From Bacteroidia bacterium (GTDB taxonomy: Bacteria; Bacteroidota; Bacteroidia; Flavobacteriales; Flavobacteriaceae): a stretch of 64,000 bases of DNA. Under the pieces are notes generated by a model. It searched no databases, was not told where the DNA came from, and worked only from the letters and a program-made list of their open reading frames with translations. The translations under genes were made by a program, and so were the position numbers. Positions 43,877 to 59,087 of this stretch are shown piece by piece; the first letter of the stretch is position 1; each line of letters begins with the position of its first letter. The stretch spans positions 1 to 64,000 of the forward strand of contig JAUIFO010000013.1 of the NCBI GenBank assembly GCA_030430385.1, in the 5' to 3' direction.

Positions 43877-43911
43877 CCATTCGTCGACACTTTTTTGCCA
43901 TCCGTCGACAC
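43877..43911 (+). promoter_or_regulatory. Site A: LytTR-like direct repeat before the sensor operon
   Basis: CCATTCGTCGACAC (43877-43890) and CCATCCGTCGACAC (43898-43911) are direct repeats with 13 of 14 identical bases and a 21-bp period, joined by TTTTTTG. A -7-like TATATTGA lies at 43959, 82 bases from the repeat start, and the receiver gene begins at 43988. LytTR-family regulators bind paired direct repeats on one face of DNA. The repeat is certain; the protein that binds it is inferred. Confidence 0.8.
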
Positions 43912-43987
43912 TTAATTTCGTTCAACCGAATTATAAATTTCAATGTAGCAGATTGAGCTATATTGACCAATCTAATCTTAAGTCAAA

Positions 43988-44398
43988 ATGAAAACCCTAA
44001 ACATATTACTCATTGAGGACGATATGATTGAAGTGATGAAATTGAGCCGAGCTACAACATCATTACAACTCAATCACAATATCATAGAAGCCAATAATGG
44101 TGAGGAAGCTCTAGCTTTATTAGAGCAAAAAGATCAATTACCAGATATTATTCTGTTGGATTTAAATATGCCCAAAATTAATGGTATAGAATTCCTTAAA
44201 ATTTTAAAGGCAGATGATCGACTAAAATATATTCCTACAATTATTTTAACCACATCTAATAATCAACGTGATCTTTTAGAGTGCTATAAAATTGGAATTG
44301 CTGGCTATGTTTTAAAGCCATTGAAATACGAAGATTATGTTTCTAAAATTGAAAAATTATTAGGATATTGGAGCGTCAACGAATTAATTACGGCCTAA
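43988..44398 (+). CDS. Single-domain response regulator (CheY-like receiver)
   Basis: 136 residues, a receiver domain only. The acidic pair lies in LLIEDDMIE, the phospho-acceptor is D58 (IILLDLNMPKINGIEFL), and VLKPLKYEDY supplies the conserved Lys. This Rcp-like form is commonly paired with cytosolic histidine kinases. It is first in the operon with the H-NOX, kinases, FIST, Hpt and LytTR genes and may act as a phosphate sink or as an intermediate feeding the Hpt protein. Confidence 0.92.
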   Translation: MKTLNILLIEDDMIEVMKLSRATTSLQLNHNIIEANNGEEALALLEQKDQLPDIILLDLNMPKINGIEFLKILKADDRLKYIPTIILTTSNNQRDLLECYKIGIAGYVLKPLKYEDYVSKIEKLLGYWSVNELITA

Positions 44399-44419
44399 AC
44401 ACCAAAATAAAAAACACCT

Positions 44420-44959
44420 ATGAAAGGGATTATTTTTACTGAATTTTTAGAACTTGTAGAAGAAAAGTTTGGTTTAGCAATGGTTGATAAAATCATTAAT
44501 CAGTCTAATTTAGAATCTGATGGAGTATATACAGCAGTTGGAACTTATGAATTTTCAGAAATGTTACAACTCATTTCACATTTAAGTGAAAATACAGATA
44601 TTGCTATTGATGATTTATTATTGGTATATGCCGAACACCTCTTTAAAGCGCTTATAAAAACACATCCTAACTTGGTAGAACATTACAAAGATCCAATGAA
44701 TTTGCTGGCCTCCATTGAAAATCATATTCATGTTGAGGTTCAAAAAATTTATCCTGATGCGCAGTTACCAACCTTCGAATTAGAGGAAAAAACAGATGAT
44801 TCAATGGTAATGGTGTACAAATCAGACAAGGCGCTTTACATGCTAGGAAAAGGGCTAATGTTAGAAACGTTTAAGCTCTATGGTGTATCTGCCGATATTG
44901 AAATTGAAAAGTTGAACGAACAGGGAACTGAAGTTAGATTTTTTATAAACAAAGCCTAA
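44420..44959 (+). CDS. H-NOX (heme NO/oxygen-binding) sensor protein
   Basis: 179 residues, a stand-alone H-NOX domain. The start MKGIIFTEFLELVEEKFG and the axial heme ligand region NHIHVEVQKIYPDAQLP (ligand most likely H104) are characteristic. The propionate-binding YxSxR motif reads Y133-K-S135-D-K137, with Lys in place of Arg. Stand-alone bacterial H-NOX proteins bind NO and modulate a histidine kinase encoded next to them; here the PAS kinase starts one base after the stop. Cytosolic. Confidence 0.85.
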   Translation: MKGIIFTEFLELVEEKFGLAMVDKIINQSNLESDGVYTAVGTYEFSEMLQLISHLSENTDIAIDDLLLVYAEHLFKALIKTHPNLVEHYKDPMNLLASIENHIHVEVQKIYPDAQLPTFELEEKTDDSMVMVYKSDKALYMLGKGLMLETFKLYGVSADIEIEKLNEQGTEVRFFINKA

Positions 44960-44960
44960 G

Positions 44961-46553
44961 ATGAGCCAAGAAGAAGTCGATATTCTCAAAAGAGCACTAG
45001 CTCGAGAACGTGCTTCACGAAAGGCAGCTGAAGAAATTCTTGAGGCTAAATCTGCTGAATTATTTGAGCTTAACCAAAAATTAGAAGCTTCACACAAAGA
45101 GCTCGAAACCTTGTACTCAAAAACCAATTCTCAACTACAGGGTGTTTTCGAAACCATCGCAGATGCGTATGTTGTTGCAGATGTAAATGGAGATATCATA
45201 AAAATGAATGAGGCAACACTTCCTTTGTTAGGTATTCAAACTATAAATGATAGTTGTAACTTAATGGAGTTGGTTAAGCCTTCAGAATATGATCGTGTAT
45301 ACAAGGCATTCAATAAGCTATATAGAGAAGGTGGTAATATTTCAGACCTTAGAGTTAATATCACTACTATAGATAAAAGAGACATATTTGTGCAAATAAA
45401 TGCTAGCGTTATTTATGATAAAGAACGACCAATAGCTACTCAAGGTATAGTAAGAGATATTACTTTAGAGAATAAATATCAGCAGGCACTTGTAGCTGAG
45501 AAGCAAAAATATAGTAACATCATTGCTAATATGAATCTTGGTCTCGTTGAAGTAAACAATGATGATGAGATTTTGATGGTCAACCACAGTTTTGAAAAAA
45601 TTTCAGGTTATACCGAATCAGAACTCATTGGAAAGAAAGGTGGCGTTGTTTTTCAAGTAGATCAAGAAAATGACATTATTAAAACTGAAAACGAAAAGCG
45701 ACAGCAAGGTGAATCAAATTCTTATGAATTAAAAGTAAAAAATAAGGCTGGAGAAATTCGTTATTGGCTCATTAGTGGTGGCCCTAATTACGATTTAAAA
45801 GGTAATGTAATTGGCTCCATTGGGATTCATCTAGACATCACTGAGCTTAAAAGTTTAGAATTTCAAAAAGAAAAACTACTTCAGAGATTAGAGAAAAGTA
45901 ACGATGAGCTACAAGAGTATGCACATATCGTTTCTCATGATTTAAAATCACCTTTACGAAGTATAGACGCCTTAGTAAGTTGGTTAAAAGATGATAATAA
46001 AGATAAGCTAGACGATACGAGTCTTCAAAATATAGATTTAATTCAGACGACCTTAGTAAAAATGGAGCAACTAATTTCAGATGTTCTCAATTATTCTAGT
46101 GTGTCTTCAGATAATAGCGAAATACAGTCTGTCGATATCCAATTATTGGTTGAAGATCTGTTGAAAATGCTTTACATACCTGAACATATTGAGGTCAAGT
46201 GTATGCGTCAATTACCAGTATTATGTGGTGATAAGACTAAGCTTCAGCAAGTATTTCAAAATCTAATTGGTAATGCGGTTAAATTTAATGACAAGGATAA
46301 AGGTCTTATAGAAATTGATGTTGAAGATCAAAAAGACTATTATAAGTTCTCAATTAAAGATAATGGTATTGGAATTGAGCCTCAATTTCATGAAAAGATT
46401 TTTAAGATCTTCCATTCCTTGAATAAAAGTAAAGATTCAACTGGTATTGGATTATCTTTAGTAAAAAAGATTGTAAACCTGCACGAAGGCAAAATTTGGC
46501 TGGAGAGTGCACCTAATATCGGTACTACTTTTTTCTTCACACTAAAAAAATGA
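44961..46553 (+). CDS. PAS-domain histidine kinase, probable H-NOX partner
   Basis: 530 residues, no membrane segment. A coiled coil (about 5-58) resembles the N-terminus of H-NOX-associated kinases. Two PAS domains follow (about 60-170 and 182-295; the second ends IGSIGIHLDITELK). The transmitter has H326 (YAHIVSHDLKSPLRSID), N box QQVFQNLIGNAVKF, G1 IKDNGIGIEP and G2 STGIGLSLVKKI. Its transmitter is very like that of the second kinase at 47689. Position after the H-NOX gene suggests control by NO-bound H-NOX. Confidence 0.9.
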   Translation: MSQEEVDILKRALARERASRKAAEEILEAKSAELFELNQKLEASHKELETLYSKTNSQLQGVFETIADAYVVADVNGDIIKMNEATLPLLGIQTINDSCNLMELVKPSEYDRVYKAFNKLYREGGNISDLRVNITTIDKRDIFVQINASVIYDKERPIATQGIVRDITLENKYQQALVAEKQKYSNIIANMNLGLVEVNNDDEILMVNHSFEKISGYTESELIGKKGGVVFQVDQENDIIKTENEKRQQGESNSYELKVKNKAGEIRYWLISGGPNYDLKGNVIGSIGIHLDITELKSLEFQKEKLLQRLEKSNDELQEYAHIVSHDLKSPLRSIDALVSWLKDDNKDKLDDTSLQNIDLIQTTLVKMEQLISDVLNYSSVSSDNSEIQSVDIQLLVEDLLKMLYIPEHIEVKCMRQLPVLCGDKTKLQQVFQNLIGNAVKFNDKDKGLIEIDVEDQKDYYKFSIKDNGIGIEPQFHEKIFKIFHSLNKSKDSTGIGLSLVKKIVNLHEGKIWLESAPNIGTTFFFTLKK

Positions 46554-46554
46554 T

Positions 46555-47688
46555 ATGAAAACGATACAATTAATTAGACAAAATAACAATGATTGGCAGT
46601 ATGTATCGCCAAAATTAGATTTAAAAAAACCTTTGGTTTTAGTATTCGGAAATAGATTTGCTTTAGAAGAACCATCACTCTATGATGATGTAAGAGCTTT
46701 GTTTCCAGATGGTGAAATTATTTTTGGTTCGGCTTGTGCTGAAATTTCATCCAATACAGTTAATGAAAACAGTATTACAATCACAGCTATTGAGTTTGAA
46801 AAGAGTCATTTTTTGGTGAAAAACAGCAATATTTTGTCAAAAGATATGGACAGTCTCGAGACAGGGAAAGACCTAATAAATCAGTTTCCTACTGAAGGTT
46901 TAAAATATGTGTTTGTGGTTTCTGAAGGCAGCTTTGTTAACGGAAGTCAGCTCACGAAAGGGATGAATATTGCAATAGATGAAAACATTATTATAACAGG
47001 AGGTTTGTGTGGAGATGATGAACGATTTGAAAAAACCATTGCTGGTTATAATGAAAATCCGAAACCAGGGGAAATTATTGCTATCGGATTTTATGGAGAC
47101 ACTTTAGATATTTCGTTTTCAATTTATGGAGGATGGACACCTTTTGGTCCTGAACGCATTGTCACGAAATCTGAAGGTAATACCTTATACGAGCTTGATG
47201 GGAAGCCAGCACTAGATTTATACAAATCGTATTTAGGAGATAAAGCAAAAGATCTTCCTGGTGCAGCTTTACTGTATCCTTTAAATGTCACTTCAGAGCA
47301 TGAAAATCAATCTATAGTACGTTCCATTTTAAATATTGATGAAGCAAATAATGCTGTGATTCTGGCAGGTGATATTGCAGAAAATGCTAAAGTACAGCTT
47401 ATGATGACTAATGTAGATAACATTGCAAATGCTTCAGAGAGAGCAGCGCAACAAGCACTTGATTTGAGAACTACAAAACCTGAATTAGCAATGTTGGTGA
47501 GTTGTATAGGAAGAAAATTGGTGTTAGATCAGAGAGTAGAAGAAGAAATAGAAGAAGTAATCGAAGTTCTAGGTAAGGATACTACCATATCAGGCTTTTA
47601 TTCATACGGAGAAATTGCGCCATTTCATGGTGAGGTGAGTTGCCAGTTGCATAATCAAACCATGACAATTACACTAATTAGTGAATAG
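46555..47688 (+). CDS. FIST-domain sensor protein (NosP-like candidate)
   Basis: 377 residues with FIST N and FIST C domains: GEIIFGSACAEISSNTV and ITGGLCGDD in the N-terminal half, GFYGDTLDISFSIYGGWTPFGPERIVTKSEGNTLYELDGKPALDLYKSYLG across the junction (read in pieces), and SCIGRKLVLDQRVEEEIEEV, TISGFYSYGEIAPF at the end. FIST proteins are signal-input modules; the NosP subgroup binds heme and NO and is encoded beside histidine kinases. Whether this one binds heme cannot be told from sequence. A kinase gene without its own sensor domain follows directly. Confidence 0.85.
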   Translation: MKTIQLIRQNNNDWQYVSPKLDLKKPLVLVFGNRFALEEPSLYDDVRALFPDGEIIFGSACAEISSNTVNENSITITAIEFEKSHFLVKNSNILSKDMDSLETGKDLINQFPTEGLKYVFVVSEGSFVNGSQLTKGMNIAIDENIIITGGLCGDDERFEKTIAGYNENPKPGEIIAIGFYGDTLDISFSIYGGWTPFGPERIVTKSEGNTLYELDGKPALDLYKSYLGDKAKDLPGAALLYPLNVTSEHENQSIVRSILNIDEANNAVILAGDIAENAKVQLMMTNVDNIANASERAAQQALDLRTTKPELAMLVSCIGRKLVLDQRVEEEIEEVIEVLGKDTTISGFYSYGEIAPFHGEVSCQLHNQTMTITLISE

Positions 47689-48750
47689 ATGAATTCATTA
47701 CTCAAAAGACAAATACGTAAGTTTCTTAGTGATGAGCTAAAAGATAATAAAGATTTGAAGGCTTTTTTGGAAGCTGTTGATTTGTCTTACAATAATTTTG
47801 ACGAACAGTTTGCAATGACGCAAAGAGCTATGAAAATTAGTTCTGAAGAATTGTTTGATGCCAATCGCAAACTTCATCAAGAAGCCAAGGAACAAAAAGA
47901 ATTAATAGATAAACTCAAAAAAGTAATCAATAGATTAAAGGTCTTTGATAAAAATTCTAGCAATAGTGAAGATATTGAACTAAGTGAACTTGAACTTGTT
48001 GCATTTATTGAAGATCAAGCAAACGAAATCATTAAAATGAACAAACAACGTGAAATTTTAATGAAAGAACTTGAATATCAAAACCAAGAACTTAGTGATT
48101 ATGCGCATATGGTTTCTCATGATTTAAAATCGCCATTGCGAAGTATAGATACTTTAGCCGCTTGGCTGGTTGAAGACAATAAAGATCGCCTTGATGAGCA
48201 TTGTAGCACACAATTAAATTTAATTCGGACTAATGTTGAAAAAATGGATGCTTTGATTAATGGTATTCTAGATTATTCTACTATTGGAAAAGATCGAGAA
48301 GAAGTCTACCCTGTAGATTTAAATGTGCTTATGCAAGAGGTGTTGAAAATGATTGATATTCCAAATCATTTTAAAATTACAATTTCTGATTTACCTAAGG
48401 TTCTAGGTGATAAATACCGTTTGCAGCAACTATTTCAAAACTTGTTGAGTAATGCTATAAAATACAATGATAAACCAAAAGGACTTGTTGAAATTGGTTA
48501 TCAAGAGCTAGATGAGTTTTGGGAGTTTTATGTCAAAGACAATGGAAAAGGCATTGATGAAAAATATTTCGATAAAATATTTAAAGTTTTTGAGAAATTA
48601 GAAAACACAAAAGGTTCAACAGGTGTTGGTTTATCTATAGTTAAAAAAATTGTAGACGTTTATGGCGGAAACATTTGGTTAACTTCAATACCAGATGAAG
48701 GAACAACCTTTTTCTTTACTTTAAAAAAGCAACAAAATGGAGCAGCCTAA
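47689..48750 (+). CDS. Cytosolic histidine kinase, probable FIST partner
   Basis: 353 residues. The first 135 are helical and coiled-coil with no PAS or membrane segment, so input must come from another protein, most simply the FIST protein encoded one codon upstream. The transmitter has H144 (YAHMVSHDLKSPLRSID), QQLFQNLLSNAIKYND, VKDNGKGIDEKYF and STGVGLSIVKKIVD. It is closely related to the PAS kinase at 44961, including the DNKDxLDE linker. Its end overlaps the Hpt gene by 14 bases. Confidence 0.9.
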   Translation: MNSLLKRQIRKFLSDELKDNKDLKAFLEAVDLSYNNFDEQFAMTQRAMKISSEELFDANRKLHQEAKEQKELIDKLKKVINRLKVFDKNSSNSEDIELSELELVAFIEDQANEIIKMNKQREILMKELEYQNQELSDYAHMVSHDLKSPLRSIDTLAAWLVEDNKDRLDEHCSTQLNLIRTNVEKMDALINGILDYSTIGKDREEVYPVDLNVLMQEVLKMIDIPNHFKITISDLPKVLGDKYRLQQLFQNLLSNAIKYNDKPKGLVEIGYQELDEFWEFYVKDNGKGIDEKYFDKIFKVFEKLENTKGSTGVGLSIVKKIVDVYGGNIWLTSIPDEGTTFFFTLKKQQNGAA

Positions 48751-49054
48751 CTTATCTTACATTCATAGCATGTCAGGAGGCGATAAAGCTTTTGAAGAAA
48801 AGCTTCTTGATATTATTAAGAATGAATTTCCTCTAGAAAAACAAGTGTATTGCACAAATTTTGAAGCAGGACATTTTAAAGCTACAGCAGAATGCGTTCA
48901 TAAACTTAAACATAAAATTAGTATTTTAGGCCTTGAAAAAAGTTATGAACTTGCTCAGGCTTACGAAGCAAATCTTCTCGAAAGTAATACGAAAGGTCAT
49001 TTAGAATTCGAAGCAGTACTAAAGGTCATAACTGATTATTTAGAACAGTTATAG
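48737..49054 (+). CDS. Hpt-domain phosphotransfer protein
   Basis: 105 residues, a four-helix Hpt domain. The phospho-acceptor is H55 in CVHKLKHKISILGL, the HKLKG motif with His instead of the usual Gly. It should carry phosphate from receiver to receiver, for example from the CheY-like protein to the LytTR regulator. It overlaps the kinase gene upstream and lies nine bases before the LytTR gene. Confidence 0.88.
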   Translation: MEQPNLSYIHSMSGGDKAFEEKLLDIIKNEFPLEKQVYCTNFEAGHFKATAECVHKLKHKISILGLEKSYELAQAYEANLLESNTKGHLEFEAVLKVITDYLEQL

Positions 49055-49063
49055 CACGTATTT

Positions 49064-49774
49064 ATGAATTGTATTATTATTGATGATGAAGCAGCTGCAA
49101 GGGCAATTATTGGTCAGTTGTGTACTAACGTAGAAGGCTTAGATGTAATTGAAGAATTTCCAAATGCAATTCAGGCTATAAAGTATCTCAACCAAAACGA
49201 GGTTGATCTTATTTTCTTAGACATTCATATGCCAGATTTTACAGGTTTCGATTTTATTGAAACCATAAAAAATCCACCTAAAATTATTTTAACAACATCA
49301 GATTCTAAGTTTGCTATACAGGCTTTCGAGTATGACTGTATTGTAGATTATTTAGTGAAACCAATTACACTAGAACGATTTCAAAAGGCCATAAAAAAAG
49401 CCAAATCAAAGTCAGTTTCCAAACAAGAATCGCAGCAATCCGAAAAGGTTGCATCAAGTTCAGGGAATGATCTCTATGTAAATATTGATAGACGCCTTAT
49501 CAAAATCGATATCCCAAGTATTTATCTAGTGGAAGCCAAAGGAGATTACATTCATGTAAAAACTGAAACACAAAACTATACGGTTCATTCAACTCTTAAA
49601 AAAATTGAAGAGAAATTACCAAACGATTTGTTCTTGAAAGTACATCGCTCTTACATTATTAATGTTGATAAAATCATTGATATTGAAGATAATAGCGTCT
49701 TGATCAAGAAAGATGTTATTCCTGTTAGTCGTTCAAATAGACCTGAACTTATGAAACGACTCAACTTACTCTAA
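49064..49774 (+). CDS. LytTR-family response regulator
   Basis: 236 residues. The receiver has IIIDDEAAAR and the phospho-acceptor D53 (IFLDIHMPDFTGFDF). After a Lys/Ser/Gln-rich linker (about 120-135), the LytTR DNA-binding domain begins (LYVNIDRRLIKIDIPSIYLVEA read in pieces), with GDYIHVKTE, FLKVHRSYIINVDKI and VSRSNRPELMKRL. It is the only DNA-binding protein of the operon and so the likely output. The direct repeats at 43877, 49777, 56107 and 57777 are its proposed targets. Confidence 0.93.
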   Translation: MNCIIIDDEAAARAIIGQLCTNVEGLDVIEEFPNAIQAIKYLNQNEVDLIFLDIHMPDFTGFDFIETIKNPPKIILTTSDSKFAIQAFEYDCIVDYLVKPITLERFQKAIKKAKSKSVSKQESQQSEKVASSSGNDLYVNIDRRLIKIDIPSIYLVEAKGDYIHVKTETQNYTVHSTLKKIEEKLPNDLFLKVHRSYIINVDKIIDIEDNSVLIKKDVIPVSRSNRPELMKRLNLL

Positions 49775-49776
49775 TA

Positions 49777-49811
49777 CCATTCGTCTATACTTTTTTACCA
49801 TCGGTCGCTGT
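49777..49811 (+). promoter_or_regulatory. Site B: LytTR-like direct repeat before the T9SS protein
   Basis: CCATTCGTCTATAC (49777-49790) and CCATCGGTCGCTGT (49798-49811), period 21 bp, joined by TTTTTTA exactly as at site A. The -7 box TAGATTTG (49859-49866) is a perfect TAnnTTTG and is 82 bases from the repeat start, the same distance as at site A. The T9SS protein gene starts at 49887. Confidence 0.78.
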
Positions 49812-49886
49812 CTTGCTCTAAGCCAACGAAAATTCCTTTTTTTCATGTGAGTAACCAATAGATTTGTCATCAAATTAAAACTCTAG

Positions 49887-52487
49887 ATGATGGATCAACT
49901 CAGTAAATTTAAACTGAAATTATTACTCTACGTTGTACTCTTTACAACCATAGTAGCTCAAGCACAAGACATACCATTTAATTGTGATTACAATGCCTAT
50001 TTGTTTCAATACAATGATGTATACGCTATCGATTTAGCCTCTGGTAGCTCCTATCAGGTTGCACAAGATGTAACGCCTGGTAATATTAATGCAGCAGCTT
50101 ATAATCCTGCAGATGGGTTTATTTGGGGTTCACTAAGTTCTCCAGCAAAATCGATTGTTAGAATAGGTAAAAATTTCACCACTACTACATTTTATATAGA
50201 CGAATTACCAACTAATAATCGCTATGTAGGTGATATTAACAATGAGGGTATTTACTTCTTAAAAGGAGGAGGGACTACGTATTATAAAATTGATTTAAAC
50301 CCGAATTCAGCTAATTACACATTACACGAGTCTACAGAAACATTATCTCAAAATATCAATGTGCACGACTGGGCTTTTAATGCTGTTGATGGCCAATTGT
50401 ATACCGTTGAAAAAGGGTCTAACATCCTATATCGTATTAACCCATTAAACGGTTCAGTTCAAGCTCTTGGATTAGTGCCAATTCTTTCAGGTTTAAATTA
50501 TACCTATGGAGCAGTTTATTTTGATGCTGACGGTAGATTTTATGTTTCTGCAAACCAAACAGGAACGATATACGTGATTCAAAGTGTACAAAATTTAAAT
50601 GCTGGTGATACTATAGATTCTAATCTTTTTGCTTTTGGTCCATCAAGTGCTAGTAATGATGGTGCACGTTGTCCAACAGCTCCTGTTCCTCAAGAAATTT
50701 GTGACAATGGTATTGATGACGATGGTGATGGTTTAATTGATTGTGAAGATCCTTCTTGCTCAGGTTTTGGTGAATGTGCTGTGATTGTACCTCCTACATC
50801 TGCAGCCAATGATGGCGGACTAGAAAGTAATAATAGATTGTCTGAACAAATCAATCAAAGAAATTTTAACCGCGCCAAAACAGGCTATAAATTTAATTTT
50901 AGTCAAGCGCAACGTCTTCAAAAATCTACAAGTTATTTGCAGCGTAATGCTTACTCAAGCTTTACATTAGAAGATTTTATTCCATTTGATATCATTAACG
51001 AAGATGAGGTGATAGAATCTACACCTTCAGATTTATTGCAAATCACAAATGCTTCAGAAATCTACGCAGTGGATTACTTAAAAAATAATATACCATTTGC
51101 TTCTATTCTAGCATTAAAAACCGACAATGGAGTGTATGAACATACAAAATACATTTGTGATCGATTGTTAGGTGCCGAATTAATTTCTGTATCAACGATA
51201 GCCATTAATGAGCAATCGTTTATAAAATCTATTATCAAAAACGTAGATGGCACTTTTGAATATGTGTTGAGTTTTTCAGCTAAAACAGTTAATAATGACG
51301 AAAACTTCGCAATTGAAAGCCATTGGAATTTAGATCAATATGAAGCAAATGTTACTTTTTACAACTTTCAAATTTGGACGAATTCTGTTGATGACTTATT
51401 TCAACTCGGACAAGAAGTCTTGAATTTATTAGATGTACAAAAGTCAATTTCAGATTATAATAATTCAACACCTCCAACCGTATTTGTGAGAAAAGGAAGC
51501 TATACAAATGGCGCATTAGATTTACAAATTATTAATACAAATGCATCAGATACAGTGGCTTTTGATGCAGGATATCGAACAACTGAAACTTCAGAATTTG
51601 ATTCTATGAACTCTACAATCAATTTAAATTCTGAATACATTACCAATTTACAAATTGAGACAGGAAATCTATTTGATATTGGCTTTAGAATTGGTGATGG
51701 TATAGCAACACCAGATGACTTATTTATGTCTGATGGTCCTTGGGGAATTGATGATTCTCAGCCAGATTCTGAGGTAATCACATATGAAGTAAGTGAAAAT
51801 ACAGAAACCTTTGATGTATCAGAATTTCCAGTAGAACGCAATGTGCAATTGCAAGCCAACACAAGTACTTATGTTGCTGCTTACAGAGCATTAACACCAA
51901 GATTCAAACCTGTAAACCTAACAGCTTATAATAGTTTGCAATTTGAAGCTCAAGGAACAGGTACTTTAGAGGTAGCACTTTTAAAGGCTAGTATTTCAAA
52001 TTGGGAGGATCAATATAAAATGACGATTGATTTAACTGAAACCTTACAAGAGTTCACACTTCCTATTTCTAGTTTTGAATCAAATACAGGAACTGGTTTA
52101 GAGCTTAACGATATTGTAACTGTAGTTTTTACAATGGTTTCAGATACAGGAACATTGGAGTCAAAATCGATGACACTTCAGCAATTGCGTTTTTCAAAAG
52201 AAGATACACTCTCTGTTGAAGATTTAGATGAAACAACAAATGACCTTAGAGCTTTCCCTAATCCTATTACAAGTAAAACCAACATTCAATTTACAACAAA
52301 TCAAGCTGAAACTGTACAACTTGTCATTTATGATCAACTAGGTAAAGCTGTACTAAAAAAATCAATTACTGTTAGCGCTGGGAAAAATCAAATTGCTCTA
52401 GATGTTAATCTATCAAGTGGTTTGTACATAGCAAAGGTACTTAGTAAACATAACATTTATAATCCCTTAAAATTAATAGCTAGATAA
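49887..52487 (+). CDS. Large T9SS-secreted surface protein
   Basis: 866 residues. Signal peptide ending VAQAQ. Residues 30-250 form a propeller-like beta domain (FNCDYNAYLFQYNDVYAID, AAYNPADGFIWGS, DWAFNAVDGQLYTVEKG). A metal-loop motif follows (CDNGIDDDGDGLIDCEDPSC, near 270). The central 280-770 region is beta-rich with no recognised domain. The last 80 residues are a type A T9SS sorting domain (AFPNPITSKTNIQFT, VIYDQLGKAVLKK, SSGLYIAKVLS). It should be exported through T9SS and kept at the surface or released; an adhesin or matrix role is inferred from its regulation with the polysaccharide genes. Confidence 0.82.
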   Translation: MMDQLSKFKLKLLLYVVLFTTIVAQAQDIPFNCDYNAYLFQYNDVYAIDLASGSSYQVAQDVTPGNINAAAYNPADGFIWGSLSSPAKSIVRIGKNFTTTTFYIDELPTNNRYVGDINNEGIYFLKGGGTTYYKIDLNPNSANYTLHESTETLSQNINVHDWAFNAVDGQLYTVEKGSNILYRINPLNGSVQALGLVPILSGLNYTYGAVYFDADGRFYVSANQTGTIYVIQSVQNLNAGDTIDSNLFAFGPSSASNDGARCPTAPVPQEICDNGIDDDGDGLIDCEDPSCSGFGECAVIVPPTSAANDGGLESNNRLSEQINQRNFNRAKTGYKFNFSQAQRLQKSTSYLQRNAYSSFTLEDFIPFDIINEDEVIESTPSDLLQITNASEIYAVDYLKNNIPFASILALKTDNGVYEHTKYICDRLLGAELISVSTIAINEQSFIKSIIKNVDGTFEYVLSFSAKTVNNDENFAIESHWNLDQYEANVTFYNFQIWTNSVDDLFQLGQEVLNLLDVQKSISDYNNSTPPTVFVRKGSYTNGALDLQIINTNASDTVAFDAGYRTTETSEFDSMNSTINLNSEYITNLQIETGNLFDIGFRIGDGIATPDDLFMSDGPWGIDDSQPDSEVITYEVSENTETFDVSEFPVERNVQLQANTSTYVAAYRALTPRFKPVNLTAYNSLQFEAQGTGTLEVALLKASISNWEDQYKMTIDLTETLQEFTLPISSFESNTGTGLELNDIVTVVFTMVSDTGTLESKSMTLQQLRFSKEDTLSVEDLDETTNDLRAFPNPITSKTNIQFTTNQAETVQLVIYDQLGKAVLKKSITVSAGKNQIALDVNLSSGLYIAKVLSKHNIYNPLKLIAR

Positions 52488-52536
52488 TCCCTATGCTAAT
52501 TACTTAGTTCACCAACAAATGAAGGTGTCTTAAGGT

Positions 52537-52572
52537 AAAGGCAAAAGCGAAAGCTTTTGCCTTTTGATTTTT
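52537..52572 (+). terminator. Intrinsic terminator with GAAA tetraloop
   Basis: AAAGGCAAAAGC (52537-52548), loop GAAA, GCTTTTGCCTTT (52553-52564), then T-rich sequence. Ends the T9SS protein transcript just before the KAP gene. Confidence 0.85.
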
Positions 52573-52601
52573 GTATTGGTATATTTAGAAAAAATAAAGT
52601 T

Positions 52602-54014
52602 ATGCGACTCAAAAACAGTAAGATAATTATTCCTTCGGATGGACATGATCCATTTGTCAATTGCAAATTGGATAGAAAAAAATACGCTGAAATTCTGACG
52701 AGCATTGTTGAAAACTACAAAGACGGATTTGTTCTTGCCATCGATAACAAGTGGGGAACAGGTAAGACAACTTTTATCCAAATGTGGAGACAATACTTAA
52801 TAAATAAAGAGTTTAATACTCTTTATTTCAATGCTTGGGAAAATGATTTTCAAGAGGACGTAATAATTGCCTTACTTTCGGAGCTAGAAGAGTTTAAGTA
52901 TAAAGAAGAAAGAACTTTCAAGAAACTTGTAGAAAAATCCGCTACCTTTTTAAAGAGAGTATTTCCTGCTATTGTTAAGGGAGTCGCTAACAAGGCAATT
53001 GGAGAACAAGGTGTTTCGGAAGTTGCTGAGGCAATGACTGAATTTACTTCTGAGGAAGTAGAGAATCAAATGAAATACTTTAACGAAAAGAAACATGGCA
53101 TAAAGGAGTTTAGGAAAATATTAGAGGAGTTTGTTGACTATGTTGATCAAAGTAAGCCTTTGATATTTATTATTGATGAACTAGATAGATGTAGACCAAA
53201 GTATTCAGTTGAAATTTTAGAACAGATTAAACATCTATTTAATGTACCAGGAATTGTATTTGTTTTATCCATTGATAAAATTCAATTAGGAAATGCAGTT
53301 AGAGGATTTTATGGAAGTGATATGATAGATGCGGACGAATATTTAAGACGGTTTATTGATTTAGAGTATAGGATTCCAGAACCAAATCCAGAGTTATTTA
53401 TATCTTACTTATATGACTTTTTTGAGTTCGGTAGTTTTTTAAATTTAAGTGAAAGACAGAACGTACGTGATTTTCAAGAAGATCGTAATAGATTTATTCA
53501 ATACTCATTGGTTCTATATTCCAAAGGTTTTAGCCTGAGACAAATTGAAAAAGCTTTTGCTCGAATAAGATTAACGCTAAGATTTTTTAGTATTAAACAA
53601 TATGTATTTCCAGAAATCATCGTAATAGTTTCATTCCTTGATTTAAAGCATTCTTCTACTTTGTATAAAATTCGAAAATTTGAATATAGTTTACAAGGTT
53701 TAGTCGATGAACTAGATAAAATTTTCTTGCCATTAATCAATGAAAGAAATAATAGAAGAGTTAGGTTTATGTTTGGGTCTTTTTTATGTAGATATGAAAA
53801 TTTCCATTTGGATAAATACGGACAACTAAAAAATGGATTGGTTGAAAAAGATGAGTCAAATAATTCAAAACTTTCAATAACATCGAGATTAGAGAACGAT
53901 AATGGCGAACTACTTCATGCAATTGAATATTATAAAAGACACTTTTATACTGACAATATAAGTTTAGATTACATTTTAAAAAAATATGACTTGACAGAGT
54001 TTATTAATAACTAA
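52602..54014 (+). CDS. KAP-family P-loop NTPase
   Basis: 470 residues from ATG 52602; a TTG at 52557 would start inside the terminator stem. Walker A is NKWGTGKTTF (K55), Walker B is FIIDELDRCRPKYSVEIL, followed by GIVFVLSIDKIQLGNAV, all diagnostic of KAP NTPases. The membrane helices that many KAP proteins carry between these motifs are not obvious here. Some members are linked to phage exclusion or defence. A TATATTTA box at 52577 gives it its own promoter. It is unrelated in function to its neighbours and converges on the TPR gene with a four-base overlap. Confidence 0.85.
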   Translation: MRLKNSKIIIPSDGHDPFVNCKLDRKKYAEILTSIVENYKDGFVLAIDNKWGTGKTTFIQMWRQYLINKEFNTLYFNAWENDFQEDVIIALLSELEEFKYKEERTFKKLVEKSATFLKRVFPAIVKGVANKAIGEQGVSEVAEAMTEFTSEEVENQMKYFNEKKHGIKEFRKILEEFVDYVDQSKPLIFIIDELDRCRPKYSVEILEQIKHLFNVPGIVFVLSIDKIQLGNAVRGFYGSDMIDADEYLRRFIDLEYRIPEPNPELFISYLYDFFEFGSFLNLSERQNVRDFQEDRNRFIQYSLVLYSKGFSLRQIEKAFARIRLTLRFFSIKQYVFPEIIVIVSFLDLKHSSTLYKIRKFEYSLQGLVDELDKIFLPLINERNNRRVRFMFGSFLCRYENFHLDKYGQLKNGLVEKDESNNSKLSITSRLENDNGELLHAIEYYKRHFYTDNISLDYILKKYDLTEFINN

Positions 54015-56062
54015 TTTCTGAAAATAGGTTGGTTGAAGAGATTCCATTTAAAGCGTAGTCCTATTTCAGTAAATGTAAAACCTGCTGCTGTAGCCGAAGC
54101 AATATTACTATGCGTTCCATAAATATTAAGAAGTGCGCGTTTTGAAAATTTATAACCTAGTTTTCCTTGAAATCTGTATGTTGTTTGACTGTCATTGTCT
54201 TTAATATTTTGAATTCCAGTGGCTGCAGTAAGCTCATAAAACCAAGACTTAGGTTTTACAATGTTTTCATCCTTAATTATGTTTATAAAAACCTCACCAG
54301 CATTAAATTGTTTTGGACTGAAATAGATTTCAGGAACTTGATTTTTAAACCCAATGAATTGATAGTTCAATCCGACTTTTAATGAAGGGTTACGCAATAG
54401 ATTGTAATAAAGCGACGTGAATAATAACTGTCTGGTATTGCCATCATTTTGAGATGTATATATTAGCTGTGTATACCATCCTAAATTAATATTAGTTGCT
54501 AAATTGTAATTTAAATAATAATTATTCTGAACAATTTCACGATCTAGTAGATCTGCATTAAAGCTTTGTAGATCTCGTTTATATCCAATATCTAATGTTT
54601 GAAGTTTAAAAGGCTTAATATTAACACTGAGGTCTGTTAATAATTGTGTGAAATTATTATTCTCTGCTGAAGCGCTTGTCACTCCAACATTGCCTTTAAG
54701 TGTAATATTATTTTTAATTCGATAAGAAGTTCCAATTGAAAAATCATTAGAGCTTGCCATATCATCAGTTTCTGAATTAGAAGTGCTTCTATAATTGTAT
54801 TGTCCCGTAAAACTCAGTTTGGTAGAAACAGGAATAGTGATACTGCTATTCGCATAATAAGCGATGTTATTTCCATTATCAAAACTATAAGCAGCTTTGG
54901 TATGTAATGAAGGTGAAAAGCTCTCGTCTAGCTTTGATATAAATTGTACGGCATCTTTCTGTTTATTGTAGAACTGAAGCGTTTGTGCCGCAGCAAGATA
55001 GGCGTCTTCATAATTACCTAAGGCTTTAAGTGTATTTGCTTTTCCAAGATTCCCATCAAAAGAAGTGCTGTCATTGGCTAAAATCTTATTGTAGTCTTCT
55101 AAACTTTTATCAAAGTCGCTTTTATAGATATGAAGTGTTGCACGTAATGCCAAAACCCAATTTTCGTTTGAAAAACTTGTCATAAGTTGGTCAATTTGAG
55201 ATTGAGCATCTTTAAACTTACGATTCCAAATTAAAGCTTGAATATAACGTTCAGAGGCATTTTTATTATTATCAGTTGTACTAGAATCTAATGCGCGTTT
55301 ACTGAGGTCTAAAGCTTGTTTGTCTTTTCCGTTCAAATGTGCAACCAAAGCTAATCCAATTTTTGCTTCCGTGTTAAAACTCGTGTTTTGATCTAGTTGG
55401 TTATAAGTCGCTTCAGCCTTATTAAAGTCTTCTTTAATGATATACAGATTCGCAAGGTTTAAAAGGATGTCTTTGTCATTATTTAATAATTCTAAAGCTT
55501 CTAATAATAAGGTTTCAGCGTGTTCTAAGTTTTGAGCTTGCTGATTTTGATATGCATACCCTAAGTAAATGTATTTTTTTGAGGTTAAGGCATTCAAGTT
55601 TCCAGGTGAAACGATTAAAGCCTTATTTACCATCTCTAGCGCTTGAGGATAGTTTTTTAAATTTGATAAAGTATTGGCATATCCCAACAAAGCAGGAAAA
55701 CTTTTTGAATCTTCTATAACTAAGGCTTTATAATAGGATTGGGCTTTTGAGAACTTACGATTCCAAAGTAATGCTTCACCATAATTAAGCTTAATCTCAA
55801 AGTCGTTTGGGTATACTTCTAATAATTCGGTAAAGAGGGTTAACGCTTTTTCTGGGTTACCATTTAATCCAACGGCTCTTCCATAACATAATGTTGCTGT
55901 TCTCTGATTAGGATACTGTTCTAAGATCTGTTTGAAATAATCTTCAGCTTCAGCATATGCACCAGTCTCGAGTAGATTGAATCCTTCATCCATTTGTTGG
56001 GAATAATTCCAATTAAAAATGAATAGGATACCGATAATTATAATAGATTTTAAAGTCTTCAT
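54011..56062 (-). CDS. TPR protein with C-terminal outer-membrane barrel (PelB/BcsC-like layout)
   Basis: 683 residues from ATG 56062 (an ATG at 56068 is equally possible). A signal peptide ends near NWNYSQ. From about 25 to 365 there are ten or so TPR repeats (EGFNLLETGAYAEAEDYFKQIL, ALLGYANTLSNLKNYPQALEMV, read in pieces). From 390 on, alternating strands (LSFTGQYNYRS, NDFSIGTSYRI, LDIGYKRDL, NLGWYTQLIYTSQ) end in IGLRFKWNLF, an outer-membrane barrel. This layout is used by polysaccharide export proteins such as PelB and BcsC. It is divergent from the STAS gene across site C. Confidence 0.8.
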   Translation of the reverse strand: MKTLKSIIIIGILFIFNWNYSQQMDEGFNLLETGAYAEAEDYFKQILEQYPNQRTATLCYGRAVGLNGNPEKALTLFTELLEVYPNDFEIKLNYGEALLWNRKFSKAQSYYKALVIEDSKSFPALLGYANTLSNLKNYPQALEMVNKALIVSPGNLNALTSKKYIYLGYAYQNQQAQNLEHAETLLLEALELLNNDKDILLNLANLYIIKEDFNKAEATYNQLDQNTSFNTEAKIGLALVAHLNGKDKQALDLSKRALDSSTTDNNKNASERYIQALIWNRKFKDAQSQIDQLMTSFSNENWVLALRATLHIYKSDFDKSLEDYNKILANDSTSFDGNLGKANTLKALGNYEDAYLAAAQTLQFYNKQKDAVQFISKLDESFSPSLHTKAAYSFDNGNNIAYYANSSITIPVSTKLSFTGQYNYRSTSNSETDDMASSNDFSIGTSYRIKNNITLKGNVGVTSASAENNNFTQLLTDLSVNIKPFKLQTLDIGYKRDLQSFNADLLDREIVQNNYYLNYNLATNINLGWYTQLIYTSQNDGNTRQLLFTSLYYNLLRNPSLKVGLNYQFIGFKNQVPEIYFSPKQFNAGEVFINIIKDENIVKPKSWFYELTAATGIQNIKDNDSQTTYRFQGKLGYKFSKRALLNIYGTHSNIASATAAGFTFTEIGLRFKWNLFNQPIFRN

Positions 56063-56106
56063 AGTCATTAAATTAATCTATTTGCAAGTTACGGACGAAT
56101 ACCACT

Positions 56107-56141
56107 TCATTCATCTACAGCAAACTGCCATCCGTCGAAAT
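56107..56141. promoter_or_regulatory. Site C: LytTR-like direct repeat between the TPR-barrel and STAS genes
   Basis: TCATTCATCTACAG (56107-56120) and CCATCCGTCGAAAT (56128-56141), period 21 bp. The second copy matches site A in ten consecutive bases or more. A -7-like CAGATTTA lies 73 bases from the repeat start, and the STAS gene at 56217. On the opposite strand a single half-site-like ATTCGTCC (56101-56094) faces the TPR-barrel gene, so divergent control is possible. Confidence 0.62.
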
Positions 56142-56216
56142 CAAACGTGATTACATAGAGTTTGTTAAGATATTAGCGTCAGATTTAAACAAACAAATAC
56201 TTAAAAATTAAAGATT

Positions 56217-56495
56217 ATGGCTTTACAAATTTTAGAAAAAAACGGAACATTTGAATTAAAAGGAAGTTTAACATCTCACACAACAAAATCCTTTGTGAAT
56301 CATTTCGAGCACCTCATAAAGGCTCTAAACGATGTTACAGTTAATATCGATCGTGTTGATGTAATCGACGTTAGAGGCGTTGAGGCTTTAAAAGGACTTT
56401 TAAATTTCGCATTAATATCTAACAATGCCTTTTCTATTATTGGAGATGGTTGTAAAGATATTTACGACGATTATAGAACTTCATTAGCAGCCTAA
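56217..56495 (+). CDS. STAS-domain protein without the phosphorylatable serine
   Basis: 92 residues, a single STAS domain (MALQILEKNGTFELKGSLTS, then VTVNIDRVDVIDVRGVEAL). In anti-sigma antagonists the loop reads DSSG, with the second Ser phosphorylated; here it is D51-V52-R53-G54, so control by an anti-sigma kinase is unlikely. No anti-sigma factor gene is nearby. It is 18 bases before the flippase gene and probably acts in or on the polysaccharide machinery as a binding module. Confidence 0.8.
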   Translation: MALQILEKNGTFELKGSLTSHTTKSFVNHFEHLIKALNDVTVNIDRVDVIDVRGVEALKGLLNFALISNNAFSIIGDGCKDIYDDYRTSLAA

Positions 56496-56513
56496 CAGCA
56501 AAAAAAGAACATT

Positions 56514-57767
56514 ATGCAATTTATTTCAGTATTAAAAACCAAACGTTTAACACCAGAGCAATTATTTATGCTTAGCGTGATCTTGGTCAATGGAGGAAAT
56601 TATCTTTATAATCTCATTCTTGGACGAATTCTTGGACCAGCAGAATTTGCAGATGCAGCCATTTTAATTACGTTTTTGTTGGTACTGTCTTTTATTGCCA
56701 TGACCTATCAATTGGTGACAGCCAAATTCTCGGTACTTTTTGAAGGAGAATTGTTTAACGGATTTATATCTAAAATCTTCAAGAATGCCTTCGTTATAGG
56801 ATTAATTTTAGGTGCAATTATAATAGGGTTTTCGAAGCAGCTTCAAGAACTATTTAGAACCTCAAGTTCTGAGATGTTTGTGGTGTTTGGAATTGGTGTG
56901 CCTATCTATTTTTTAATGAGTGTCAATAGAGGGATTTATCAAGGGCATCAATCTTATAAGTGGCTTTCGTTAACCTATCAAGCAGAAATGCTAAGCAGAT
57001 TGCTTCTTACTTTAGGACTTTTATTTGTTTTAAATAATAATTCATCCTTGATCATTTCAATAGGAATTTTAATTTCTTTCGGCTTTGGATTAGTGCCTTT
57101 TGAATGGCGTTACCTTAAATTAAAAGCTCCATTTACGTTAAGTAAAACTCAATCATTACAGGTAAAACGCTTTTTTTTGATTACCGCATTTTATGAATGT
57201 ACGCAAATTGTCATCAACAATAGTGATATTTTATTAGTGAAACACTATTTTGAATCTTATGATGCTGGATTATATGCGTCTCTTGCTTTAATTGGACGTG
57301 TTGTGTATTTCATCGCATGGATGTTTGTCATGTTGTTATTGCCAAAAGTTGTTCAACTGAAGAAAGAAGGCAAACAAACAACAACAGTATTGTTTAAATA
57401 TGTCTTGTACATTGTGGCAATAGCCTTTATTATTGTTTTTTGCTGTGCATGCTTTCCTGAATTAGCCATTCAATTACTTTTTGGATCTGATTATCTCTCA
57501 ATGGCACCATTACTATGGAAATATGCAACTGCCACAGGATTGTTTGCTGTCGCTAATCTATTTGCCTACTATTACTTGTCTTTAGATCGATACATTCCTG
57601 TAGTGATTTCTGGATTATTTGGACTATTACAAGTAGCACTAGTTATTGTATTTCATTCAAGTTTAGAAGAAGTAGTACTTGTTCAAATTTGGGCAATGAC
57701 CTCACTGTTAGTTCTGCAAATTGGGTATTTTATTATTGACTCAAGACAAACTAAAAGTCATATCTAA
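56514..57767 (+). CDS. Polysaccharide flippase-like membrane protein (MVF/MATE superfamily)
   Basis: 417 residues with about twelve membrane helices. The N-terminal LILGRILGPAEFADAAILITF and RGIYQGHQSYKWLS segments are typical of oligosaccharide flippases (Wzx or PelG-like). It probably moves a lipid-linked or nascent glycan across the inner membrane. It follows the STAS gene by 18 bases in one unit under site C and precedes the glycosyltransferase gene. Confidence 0.82.
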   Translation: MQFISVLKTKRLTPEQLFMLSVILVNGGNYLYNLILGRILGPAEFADAAILITFLLVLSFIAMTYQLVTAKFSVLFEGELFNGFISKIFKNAFVIGLILGAIIIGFSKQLQELFRTSSSEMFVVFGIGVPIYFLMSVNRGIYQGHQSYKWLSLTYQAEMLSRLLLTLGLLFVLNNNSSLIISIGILISFGFGLVPFEWRYLKLKAPFTLSKTQSLQVKRFFLITAFYECTQIVINNSDILLVKHYFESYDAGLYASLALIGRVVYFIAWMFVMLLLPKVVQLKKEGKQTTTVLFKYVLYIVAIAFIIVFCCACFPELAIQLLFGSDYLSMAPLLWKYATATGLFAVANLFAYYYLSLDRYIPVVISGLFGLLQVALVIVFHSSLEEVVLVQIWAMTSLLVLQIGYFIIDSRQTKSHI

Positions 57768-57776
57768 AGAAATCAA

Positions 57777-57811
57777 CCATTCGTCTACAGCTATTGGTAG
57801 CCTATCTATAA
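57777..57811 (+). promoter_or_regulatory. Site D: LytTR-like direct repeat before the glycosyltransferase gene
   Basis: CCATTCGTCTACAG (57777-57790) is an excellent first copy; the second (57798-57811, TAGCCTATCTATAA) keeps only the TCTATA core at the 21-bp period. A -7-like CATCTTTG lies 62 bases from the repeat start and 31 before the gene at 57870. Site D begins nine bases after the flippase stop codon. Confidence 0.5.
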
Positions 57812-57869
57812 TCAACCTTTTTCAGAAGAATTATCAATCATCTTTGTAATATAATTAAAACATTAAATC

Positions 57870-59087
57870 ATGAAACTCGCAATTGTAACAGCTTATCCAC
57901 CAAGTAAAGTAACCTTGAATGAATATGCATACCACTTAGTTAAACACTTCAGAATGATGGATGACATTACTGAAATTGTATTGTTAACAGATAAAACAAA
58001 TACACCTAAAGATATAACTTTTGAAGCCGAAGGCTGTAAAATTTCGGTAGAGGAATGTTGGTCATTCAATAGTTACAAAAATTTGTTTTCTGTGACTAAG
58101 GCGCTTTCCAAAGTTAATCCAGATGTCGTACTTTTTAATCTTCAGTTTATGAAGTTTGGCGACAAGAAAGTGGCTGCGGCATTAGGTTTAATGTTACCTT
58201 TAGTTTGTAAGTTAAAGAAGCTCCCAAATGTGGTCTTGCTTCATAATATTATGGAAGAAGTAGATTTAGGTTCTGCTGGCTTTACATCAAATAAACTCAT
58301 GCAAAAACTCTATGGATTTATTGGTGCTACTTTAACACGCTTAATTCTTCAAGCTGATACTGTAGCAGTCACCATGCAAAAATATGTTACGGTTTTAGAA
58401 CAAAAATACAAAGCTAAAAACGTGACGTTAATTCCACATGGTACCTTTGAAATTACCGAACAAGAACCAACGTATACTATTCCTGAAGGACCATTACAAG
58501 TCATGACATTTGGTAAATTTGGAACTTATAAAAAGGTTGAAGGAATGATTGAAGCTGTTGAAATCGTTAGAGCGCGTACAGGATTAGATCTTGAAATTGT
58601 CGTAGCTGGAACAGACAACCCAAATGTTCCTGGATACTTAGATAGTGTTAAAGCGCAATATCATCAAGTCCCTCAAATGAGATTTACAGGTTATGTAGAA
58701 GAGTCTGATGTACCAAGACTCTTTAATGAAAGTGCTGTTGTTGTGTTTCCATATACATCCACAACTGGAAGTTCTGGTGTTTTACATCAGGCTGGTAGCT
58801 ATGGTAAAGCTGTAGTTATGCCAGATATTGGAGACTTAGCACTACTAGTTAAAGATGAAGGTTATAATGGTGAGTTTTTTGATCCAACTTCGGTTGAAAG
58901 TTTAGCTGATGCTATTGAAGCTATTGTTACAAATGACAAATACAGAGTGTTATTAGGAAAGCTCAATTTTGCTGCCGCAAACGCATTTCCAATGTCAAAA
59001 ATTACTGCGTTGTATGTGGAGACTTTTAAGGAGATTCAATTATCAAAAAATAAGGTGTCTGCTCAATTAGAAACTACTCTGAACTAA
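57870..59087 (+). CDS. GT4-type glycosyltransferase
   Basis: 405 residues, GT-B fold. The acceptor half starts MKLAIVTAYPPSKVTLNEYAY-like (AIVTAYPPSKVTLNEYA). The donor half has MTFGKFGTYKKVEGMIEA, FTGYVEESDVPRLFNESAVVVFPYTSTTGSSGVLHQAGSYG (in pieces) and the E in NGEFFDPTSVESLADAI, matching GT4/GT1 enzymes including PelF-like polymerases. It should build the exported glycan. It overlaps the convergent hydrolase gene by 14 bases. Confidence 0.87.
   Translation: MKLAIVTAYPPSKVTLNEYAYHLVKHFRMMDDITEIVLLTDKTNTPKDITFEAEGCKISVEECWSFNSYKNLFSVTKALSKVNPDVVLFNLQFMKFGDKKVAAALGLMLPLVCKLKKLPNVVLLHNIMEEVDLGSAGFTSNKLMQKLYGFIGATLTRLILQADTVAVTMQKYVTVLEQKYKAKNVTLIPHGTFEITEQEPTYTIPEGPLQVMTFGKFGTYKKVEGMIEAVEIVRARTGLDLEIVVAGTDNPNVPGYLDSVKAQYHQVPQMRFTGYVEESDVPRLFNESAVVVFPYTSTTGSSGVLHQAGSYGKAVVMPDIGDLALLVKDEGYNGEFFDPTSVESLADAIEAIVTNDKYRVLLGKLNFAAANAFPMSKITALYVETFKEIQLSKNKVSAQLETTLN

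Follow-up and report, generated by a model that had tools for sequence, protein, structure and literature searches.

Why do the same short direct repeats stand before a gas-sensor operon and before the polysaccharide genes that follow it, and does one regulator read them all? The locus that raises this question lies in a marine Bacteroidia bacterium of the family Flavobacteriaceae, on the 64,000-nucleotide stretch analysed here (the window: positions 1 to 64,000 of contig JAUIFO010000013.1, below contig C6; the genome is 3.2 Mb). An original prediction assigned four repeat arrays to a LytTR response regulator encoded in the sensor operon, and gave as its targets that operon, a protein secreted by the type IX secretion system (T9SS), a unit of STAS-domain protein and flippase, and a glycosyltransferase. 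Comparative evidence supports all four units as members of the regulon and adds one target, which lies outside the window. The regulon reading is drawn because the sites are conserved, intergenic, co-directional with their genes, anchored to promoters, confined to this cluster and found together with the LytTR gene. On this sequence evidence, a dedicated local LytTR regulon joined to a phosphorelay switch for extracellular polysaccharide is very probable.

The repeats themselves are plain in the sequence: those first reported at 43877, 49777, 56107 and 57777, with their 21-bp period, are correct in letters and coordinates. The four pairs stand, and what the description as pairs left out is an extra in-register repeat core in three of the four window arrays (43919, 49819 and 57756; recognized by eye and backed by relatives). 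The third repeat of array 1 is weak, with core CCGAA; the repeat at 57756 has core ATCTAAA and overlaps the flippase stop codon. A pair pattern written from the window sites themselves (CCATYCGTCK-N11-CCATYSGTCK) fits pairs 43877/43898 and 49777/49798 without mismatch and 56107/56128 with two, and in the pair 57777/57798 one half is perfect and its partner TAGCCTATCTATA retains the 3′ core alone. Three pair matches occur in the window vs 0.02 expected (100 shuffles), and the whole genome holds only the same three at up to 2 mismatches. At 3 mismatches pairs fall to control level (six more in the genome vs 9 with the backwards pattern); within the window, the claim that nothing similar precedes unrelated genes is true at that threshold. 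Single half-sites are uninformative, both in the window (33 vs 33.6 expected, up to 3 mismatches) and in the genome (10 vs 8 in the control, up to 1 mismatch). Among the latter, C20:149426 and C26:72557 were taken as chance (within open reading frames, opposite strand), and C6:64973 belongs to a real array, the fifth described here.

The original prediction had proposed scanning the genome and its relatives with a half-site matrix, and had named random scatter or lack of conservation as grounds for giving the idea up. The scans found sites confined to the cluster in the genome and conserved upstream positions in relatives. For the genome, a sequence-only model, R1, was built from 117 sites of relatives, none from the window (alignment A1: of 127 distinct pairs scoring at least 24, 10 were dropped by hand as overlapping or one-sided); the training sites were initially chosen with a matrix of window half-sites, and the test is thus not wholly independent. 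With 150 of 1091 first-look candidates scored, R1 returned seven hits at E up to 10 in the window's genome, five of them at E up to 0.02 (1.2e-9 to 0.02). These five (C6 43876, 56107, 64954, 49776 and 57776) all lie on the + strand within 21 kb; the sixth (E 0.63) falls inside an open reading frame, and the 1-mismatch half-sites C18:16947, C23:4087 and C25:169716 were not recovered.

Conservation was examined in the best 80 of 560 loci that named genome contigs gave when searched for the LytTR protein, which is 75 to 89% identical there; they come mostly from Psychroserpens, Winogradskyella, Algibacter and other Flavobacteriaceae. A matrix of seven window half-sites gave 180 pairs at a spacing of 21 bp and at most 7 at any other spacing from 15 to 30 bp; reversed sequence gave 2 pairs at 21 and never more than 9 per spacing. 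A stricter cut-off left 158 pairs in the window and the 80 loci and 0 in the reversed control. The observation that sites point with the downstream gene extends to these relatives: 409 sites lie on the strand of the LytTR gene vs 5 on the opposite one (reversed controls, 1 and 1). Of the 158 pairs, 156 are intergenic, vs 17% of random positions.

Counted gene by gene (site score at least 10, within 330 bp upstream), a site precedes the first gene of the operon in 76/77 cases, the T9SS gene in 55/58, the STAS gene in 35/38 and the glycosyltransferase in 35/41, the last despite the weak array 4 of the window. The single miss at an operon head comes from L097, a short contig whose receiver hit (32%) follows LytTR and is probably not the operon's own receiver. 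No site was found upstream in any of seven control groups: YjbR (30), DUF4230 (29), H-NOX (73), FIST (45), Hpt (80), LytTR (80) and TPR (53). The same was true of the PAS kinase (74), the second kinase (45) and KAP (1); KAP was not counted among the control groups, nor were the kinases, which cross-match each other. The fifth array precedes a 396-aa receiver-GT2 protein; next come a second GT2 and a phosphomannose isomerase. For the small GT2 gene that follows receiver-GT2, a site was found in 1/6 cases. Relatives also carry 53 downstream proteins without a counterpart in the window, of which 24 were aligned and scanned; sites were found before UDP-glucose dehydrogenase (5), OEP (5), CAP (3), Wzy_C (1) and GNVR (1) genes.

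The sites are also tied to promoters. TAnnTTTG is the consensus of the Bacteroidota -7 type promoter, and a box was counted here at 5/6 matches or better. From the first repeat to this box, offsets peak at 62 (51/158 sites) and at 82-83 (45 and 14). The counts that follow were made per promoter, since an initial scan for third repeats had taken shifted pairs within three-repeat arrays for two-repeat sites. At operon heads (76 promoters) the commonest offset is 82 (33 counts), then 83 (12), and 62/76 hold an in-register third-repeat core (C[GT]A); moved out of register by 1 to 7, the count is 0 to 10. T9SS promoters (55) divide between 82 (30) and 61-62 (23), and 32 of the 55 show a third core vs 0 to 4. 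STAS promoters (35) favour 62 (24) and show no third core on either side, and glycosyltransferase promoters (34) favour 61-62 (27); in these, 25 also have a core lying 21 bp upstream of their best pair, vs 0 to 3. These offsets put the start of the proximal repeat mostly 40-41 bp ahead of the -7 box; what varies between promoters is whether they carry two repeats or three. In line with this, a -7 box lies 40-42 bp after an in-register repeat in 261/311 arrays (from the 80 loci, the window and L116, in which the fifth array lies; a promoter may count twice, as that of the hand-added 57777 did), vs 5 to 20 at twelve other shifts and 94 at a shift of 21 bp, which corresponds to the next repeat. 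Among 33 sites from genomes outside the 80-locus set, some of which may be shifted pairs, 11 have offsets of 61-62 and 8 of 82-83.

In the window these offsets are 82 for arrays 1 and 2 and 62 for arrays 3 and 4, the last measured from its strong half-site. Three of the distances first given (82, 82, 73 and 62) therefore hold, and that for the STAS promoter is better put at 62: both candidate boxes there are poor, the one at 62 matching 4/6, and among 35 distinct STAS promoters 73 was counted once vs 24 for 62, so the longer distance was rejected. The TTTTTT spacer shared by the first two arrays is as described in the window and is not general among relatives.

Presence of the motif also follows presence of the LytTR gene. 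Across 249 Flavobacteriaceae genomes (LytTR orthologue at E up to 1e-60; motif at E up to 0.01, with stricter filters), 98 had the gene, 90 the motif and 86 both before exceptions were checked. The corrected table has 87 with both, 3 with the motif only, 12 with LytTR only and 147 with neither (Fisher 1.7e-49, genomes taken as unrelated). One motif-only genome, G180, has a LytTR orthologue after all, aligned in two pieces. Another, G049 (L170), holds a decayed operon that retains the head array, receiver, H-NOX and kinase, with FIST cut short and Hpt and LytTR gone from beside the operon head. G040 and G158 each show a single weak hit, and about 2.5 genomes are expected by chance at this threshold. 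Of the 12 with LytTR only, 8 have weaker operon-head sites (score at least 10), a ninth scores 8.8, two have none and in one the contig is too short. An overlapping order-wide sample of 296 genomes (LytTR at E up to 1e-70, motif at E up to 0.003) gave 23 with LytTR, 17 with the motif, 16 with both and 1 with the motif only, where chance would give about one. Within genera, the motif occurs in 8/9 LytTR-positive and 0/13 LytTR-negative listed genomes of g127; g4, g7 and g18 each have one genome with both and one with neither, and g3 has two LytTR-positive genomes, one with a strong motif and one without.

Table 1. Repeat arrays, promoter boxes and genes of the locus (positions in the window unless marked; fractions are matches to the -7 consensus)
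Feature	Position	Strand	Details
LytTR-type array 1, upstream of sensor operon	43877..43932	+	repeats 43877, 43898, 43919; R1 E 1.2e-9
Candidate -7 box TATATTGA, array 1	43959..43966	+	4/6; 40 bp past third-repeat start
Single-domain response regulator, first operon gene	43988..44398	+	Pfam Response_reg 3.4e-22
H-NOX haem gas sensor	44420..44959	+	Pfam HNOB 3e-35
PAS histidine kinase	44961..46553	+	Pfam
FIST-domain protein, NosP-like	46555..47688	+	Pfam FIST 1.3e-40, FIST_C 2.4e-35
Second histidine kinase, no sensor domain by Pfam	47689..48750	+	Pfam
Probable Hpt phosphotransfer protein	48737..49054	+	Pfam Hpt E 0.00098
LytTR response regulator	49064..49774	+	Pfam LytTR 1.7e-21 (over cut-off), Response_reg 3.7e-20
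Array 2, upstream of T9SS gene	49777..49832	+	repeats 49777, 49798, 49819; R1 E 1.2e-4
-7 box TAGATTTG, array 2	49859..49866	+	6/6; offset 82
Secreted protein with T9SS sorting domain	49887..52487	+	Pfam Por_Secre_tail, DUF6923
Array 3, upstream of STAS gene	56107..56141	+	repeats 56107, 56128; R1 E 2.8e-8
Candidate -7 position GATATTAG, array 3	56169..56176	+	4/6; offset 62
Small STAS-domain protein	56217..56495	+	Pfam STAS 1.3e-5
Polysaccharide flippase	56514..57767	+	Pfam Polysacc_synt_3 2.6e-12
Array 4, upstream of glycosyltransferase	57756..57811	+	repeats 57756, 57777 (strong), 57798 (weak); R1 E 0.02, partial match
-7 box CATCTTTG, array 4	57839..57846	+	5/6; 62 from 57777
GT4-type glycosyltransferase	57870..59087	+	Pfam Glyco_trans_1_4 4.9e-19
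Fifth array, 1 kb past window	C6:64952-65041 (L116:952-1041)	+	three repeats; perfect -7 box TACTTTTG, offset 82

How the genes might work together can be set out as follows. The operon (43988-49774) would be a self-contained phosphorelay in which the H-NOX and the NosP-like FIST sensor, each encoded beside a histidine kinase, signal through these kinases, and Hpt would hand the phosphate to the receiver-LytTR protein (this order of steps is conjectural). The phosphorylated LytTR protein is predicted to bind 9-bp direct repeats 21 bp apart (9-12-9, on one helix face), two or three in a row, and from the promoter-proximal repeat, 40-41 bp before the -7 box, the bound protein could contact RNA polymerase. 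It would thereby activate its own operon in a feedback as well as the T9SS-secreted protein, the STAS-flippase unit, the glycosyltransferase and the receiver-GT2 operon. Binding and activation by LytTR can be strongly inferred from the sequence; as to the input, nitric oxide or some other gas is suggested less firmly, and the polysaccharide is presumably extracellular. The genome (99.91% complete) gave no match to GGDEF or EAL (PF00990 or PF00563, E up to 0.001; HD-GYP and PilZ were not searched), and the same search detected GGDEF in 8 and EAL in 6 of the 14 control genomes; therefore the usual cyclic-di-GMP output seems unavailable here.

Several points weigh against this account. R1's training sites were selected through the window half-site matrix, and the matrix behind the gene-group, array and per-promoter counts was trained on the same loci, both of which make for circularity; 4/7 control groups (H-NOX, FIST, Hpt and LytTR) are operon-internal and hence weaker controls. 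The Fisher value disregards the relatedness of the genomes, 12/249 genomes have LytTR without a strong motif, as do 7/23 LytTR genomes of the order sample at E up to 0.003, and co-occurrence by itself ties the motif to the operon in its entirety, without telling LytTR apart from another of its products. As to promoters and targets, the window -7 boxes of arrays 1 and 3 are poor (4/6), the flippase gene has a site in 10/45 loci (with 1 in the reversed control, the sole hit in reversed regions), and the receiver-GT2 gene has one in 7/20 only, with no clean -7 offset among its 7 promoters. In the relay, Hpt scores 19.8 bits, under the Pfam cut-off of 24.6; the FIST protein fails the NCBIfam NosP cut-off (52.9 bits vs 450) and FIST was found in 50/80 loci only, five at 24-28% identity; H-NOX is missing from 7/80 loci, three of the seven uncut. 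YxSxR is the H-NOX motif, and the window protein reads YKSDK, with Lys at the last position (among 74 aligned relatives, Arg in 70 and Lys in the other 4).

The sensor points bear most on an alternative that keeps the regulon and replaces nitric oxide as its input: oxygen, redox state, another ligand or other kinases may drive the relay instead. A tblastn search of the 80 loci found Hpt in 80, LytTR in 80, the receiver in 78 (hits in L091 and L097 being at 29-32% and out of place), H-NOX in 73 and FIST in 50; several loci are truncated by contig ends. For this alternative speak the three uncut loci without H-NOX and the 30/80 without FIST, some of which are cut. The FIST protein does not qualify as an equivalog of NosP, and the PAS domains may respond to other ligands. 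Against it, the haem-ligand His (His104) is kept in 73/73 relatives aligned there, and with the HNOB domain and the Lys variant of YxSxR it places the window protein in the H-NOX family; the nearest solved chain is 6bdd (E 8.9e-74, residues 1-178). H-NOX and NosP are known nitric oxide sensors acting on kinases (PMC12570481, PMC8738867), and NosP FIST proteins bind haem and sense nitric oxide beside a kinase (PMC12570481); the one here, a FIST protein beside a kinase, may function like NosP. A different input is thus a serious possibility, if on balance a doubtful one.

Repression is harder to sustain. The LytTR protein could bind the repeats as operators and be released by phosphorylation or gas: upstream position alone leaves the sign unfixed, and HnoC of Shewanella, phosphorylated in an H-NOX pathway, represses the hno regulon (PMC8738867). 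The sites end about 30 bp upstream of the -7 box without overlapping it, the phasing to the box is fixed across two array lengths, and the profiles of the two offset classes show, by eye, no conserved -33 TTTG. Fixed phasing to the -7 box is typical of activators. The LytTR systems described in PMC6193735 also work by positive feedback. Repression is accordingly unlikely, and activation is the preferred sign.

A transcription factor encoded elsewhere might read the repeats while the LytTR protein has different targets; the genome has 16 LytTR-domain matches, and co-occurrence ties the motif to the whole operon. Genomes without a LytTR orthologue stay at the chance motif level, except for the one decayed operon, no convincing site lies beyond the cluster in the genome, the repeat geometry matches published LytTR sites, and Pfam gives no second DNA-binding domain in the operon, where the LytTR protein is the only DNA-binding protein it shows. 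(A solved-structure search with this protein gave 127 matches; the 60 listed are receiver matches except for a weak hit of the LytTR part, 3d6w.) This explanation is very improbable. That the repeats are chance, or a repetitive element without regulatory role, can be dismissed: half-sites alone are no commoner in the window than expected, but conservation, intergenic placement, strand bias and promoter anchoring all contradict it. Regulation by the operon's own LytTR protein is retained below.

Two neighbours and one recurrent feature of the locus deserve mention. A TPR protein (54011-56068, - strand), divergent from STAS, is weakly PgaA-like, far under the family cut-off, and may be a polysaccharide exporter; no LytTR site stands upstream of its gene in 53 relatives. 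Between the T9SS and polysaccharide genes lies a KAP-family P-loop NTPase gene (52557-54014), present in 1/80 loci and perhaps an insertion. Directly upstream of the operon, about 20/80 loci have a small open reading frame that bears a LytTR-type array of its own (for example L036:4154-4447, L039:4002-4400 and L170:8204-8677); two that were scanned had no Pfam match. None was seen in the window, where YjbR adjoins the operon instead.

AgrA is a LytTR response regulator with a receiver domain, as is the protein here. The sites are of a known type: published LytTR repeats include ACCACTTAT-12 bp-ACCGCTTAT, often 10 bp before the -35, with spacers of 11 to 13 bp and mostly 12 (PMC6193735). By eye and unscored, the half-site ACCATTCGT resembles ACCACTTAT and ACCATTCAA of that paper. 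Like the LytTR Regulatory Systems HdrR and BrsR, the locus has 9-bp direct repeats in one orientation immediately upstream of a promoter, and probable autoregulation (PMC6193735); an operon-encoded LytTR regulator, spacing of about 12 bp and co-directional sites upstream of its own operon are features it shares with LytTR direct-repeat regulons. Unlike those systems as PMC6193735 presents them (a regulator with a membrane protein), the regulator here bears a receiver and comes with haem/FIST sensors, kinases and Hpt; its half-site is CCATTCGTC, not ACCACTTAT-like, the arrays often have three repeats, and the promoter is of the Bacteroidota -7 type. No membrane-protein partner was found beside it, its neighbours being Hpt-like and T9SS-secreted (by Pfam only, with no transmembrane prediction).

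On the sensor side the likeness is to proteobacterial H-NOX/kinase and NosP/kinase signalling of nitric oxide, where sensors are also encoded beside kinases, with Hpt and receivers (PMC12570481, PMC8738867). The outputs there, as these sources give them, are mostly cyclic-di-GMP enzymes or quorum-sensing relays, with HnoC a transcription factor, and biofilm control by gases sensed through H-NOX and NosP is described mainly by way of cyclic-di-GMP in Proteobacteria (PMC8738867); here the output would be a LytTR transcription factor. The chain 6bdd is the Kordia algicida (Ka) H-NOX according to PMC7356049, although its molecule name in the PDB says aldolase; the passages on it there concern simulation and describe no regulon. 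Among the matches listed in a search of open-licence literature there was no description of this regulon, no described output for the H-NOX operon, and no case, in a genome lacking GGDEF/EAL, of such sensors paired with LytTR as their output to polysaccharide genes.

For this operon there are now a DNA code and a list of genes, and one genome offers five promoters that can be tested. The fixed -7 distance and the optional third repeat make it a clean system for studying how LytTR contacts Bacteroidota RNA polymerase. A wider proposal, for and against which the balance seems even, is that such a gas circuit, dispensing with cyclic-di-GMP, is common in Flavobacteriaceae: H-NOX and NosP-like sensors would act on one dedicated LytTR activator, whose two- or three-repeat arrays 40-41 bp from the -7 box would govern an exopolysaccharide locus and a secreted protein as a single local regulon. 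The findings suggest that marine polysaccharide producers may couple gas sensing directly to transcription.

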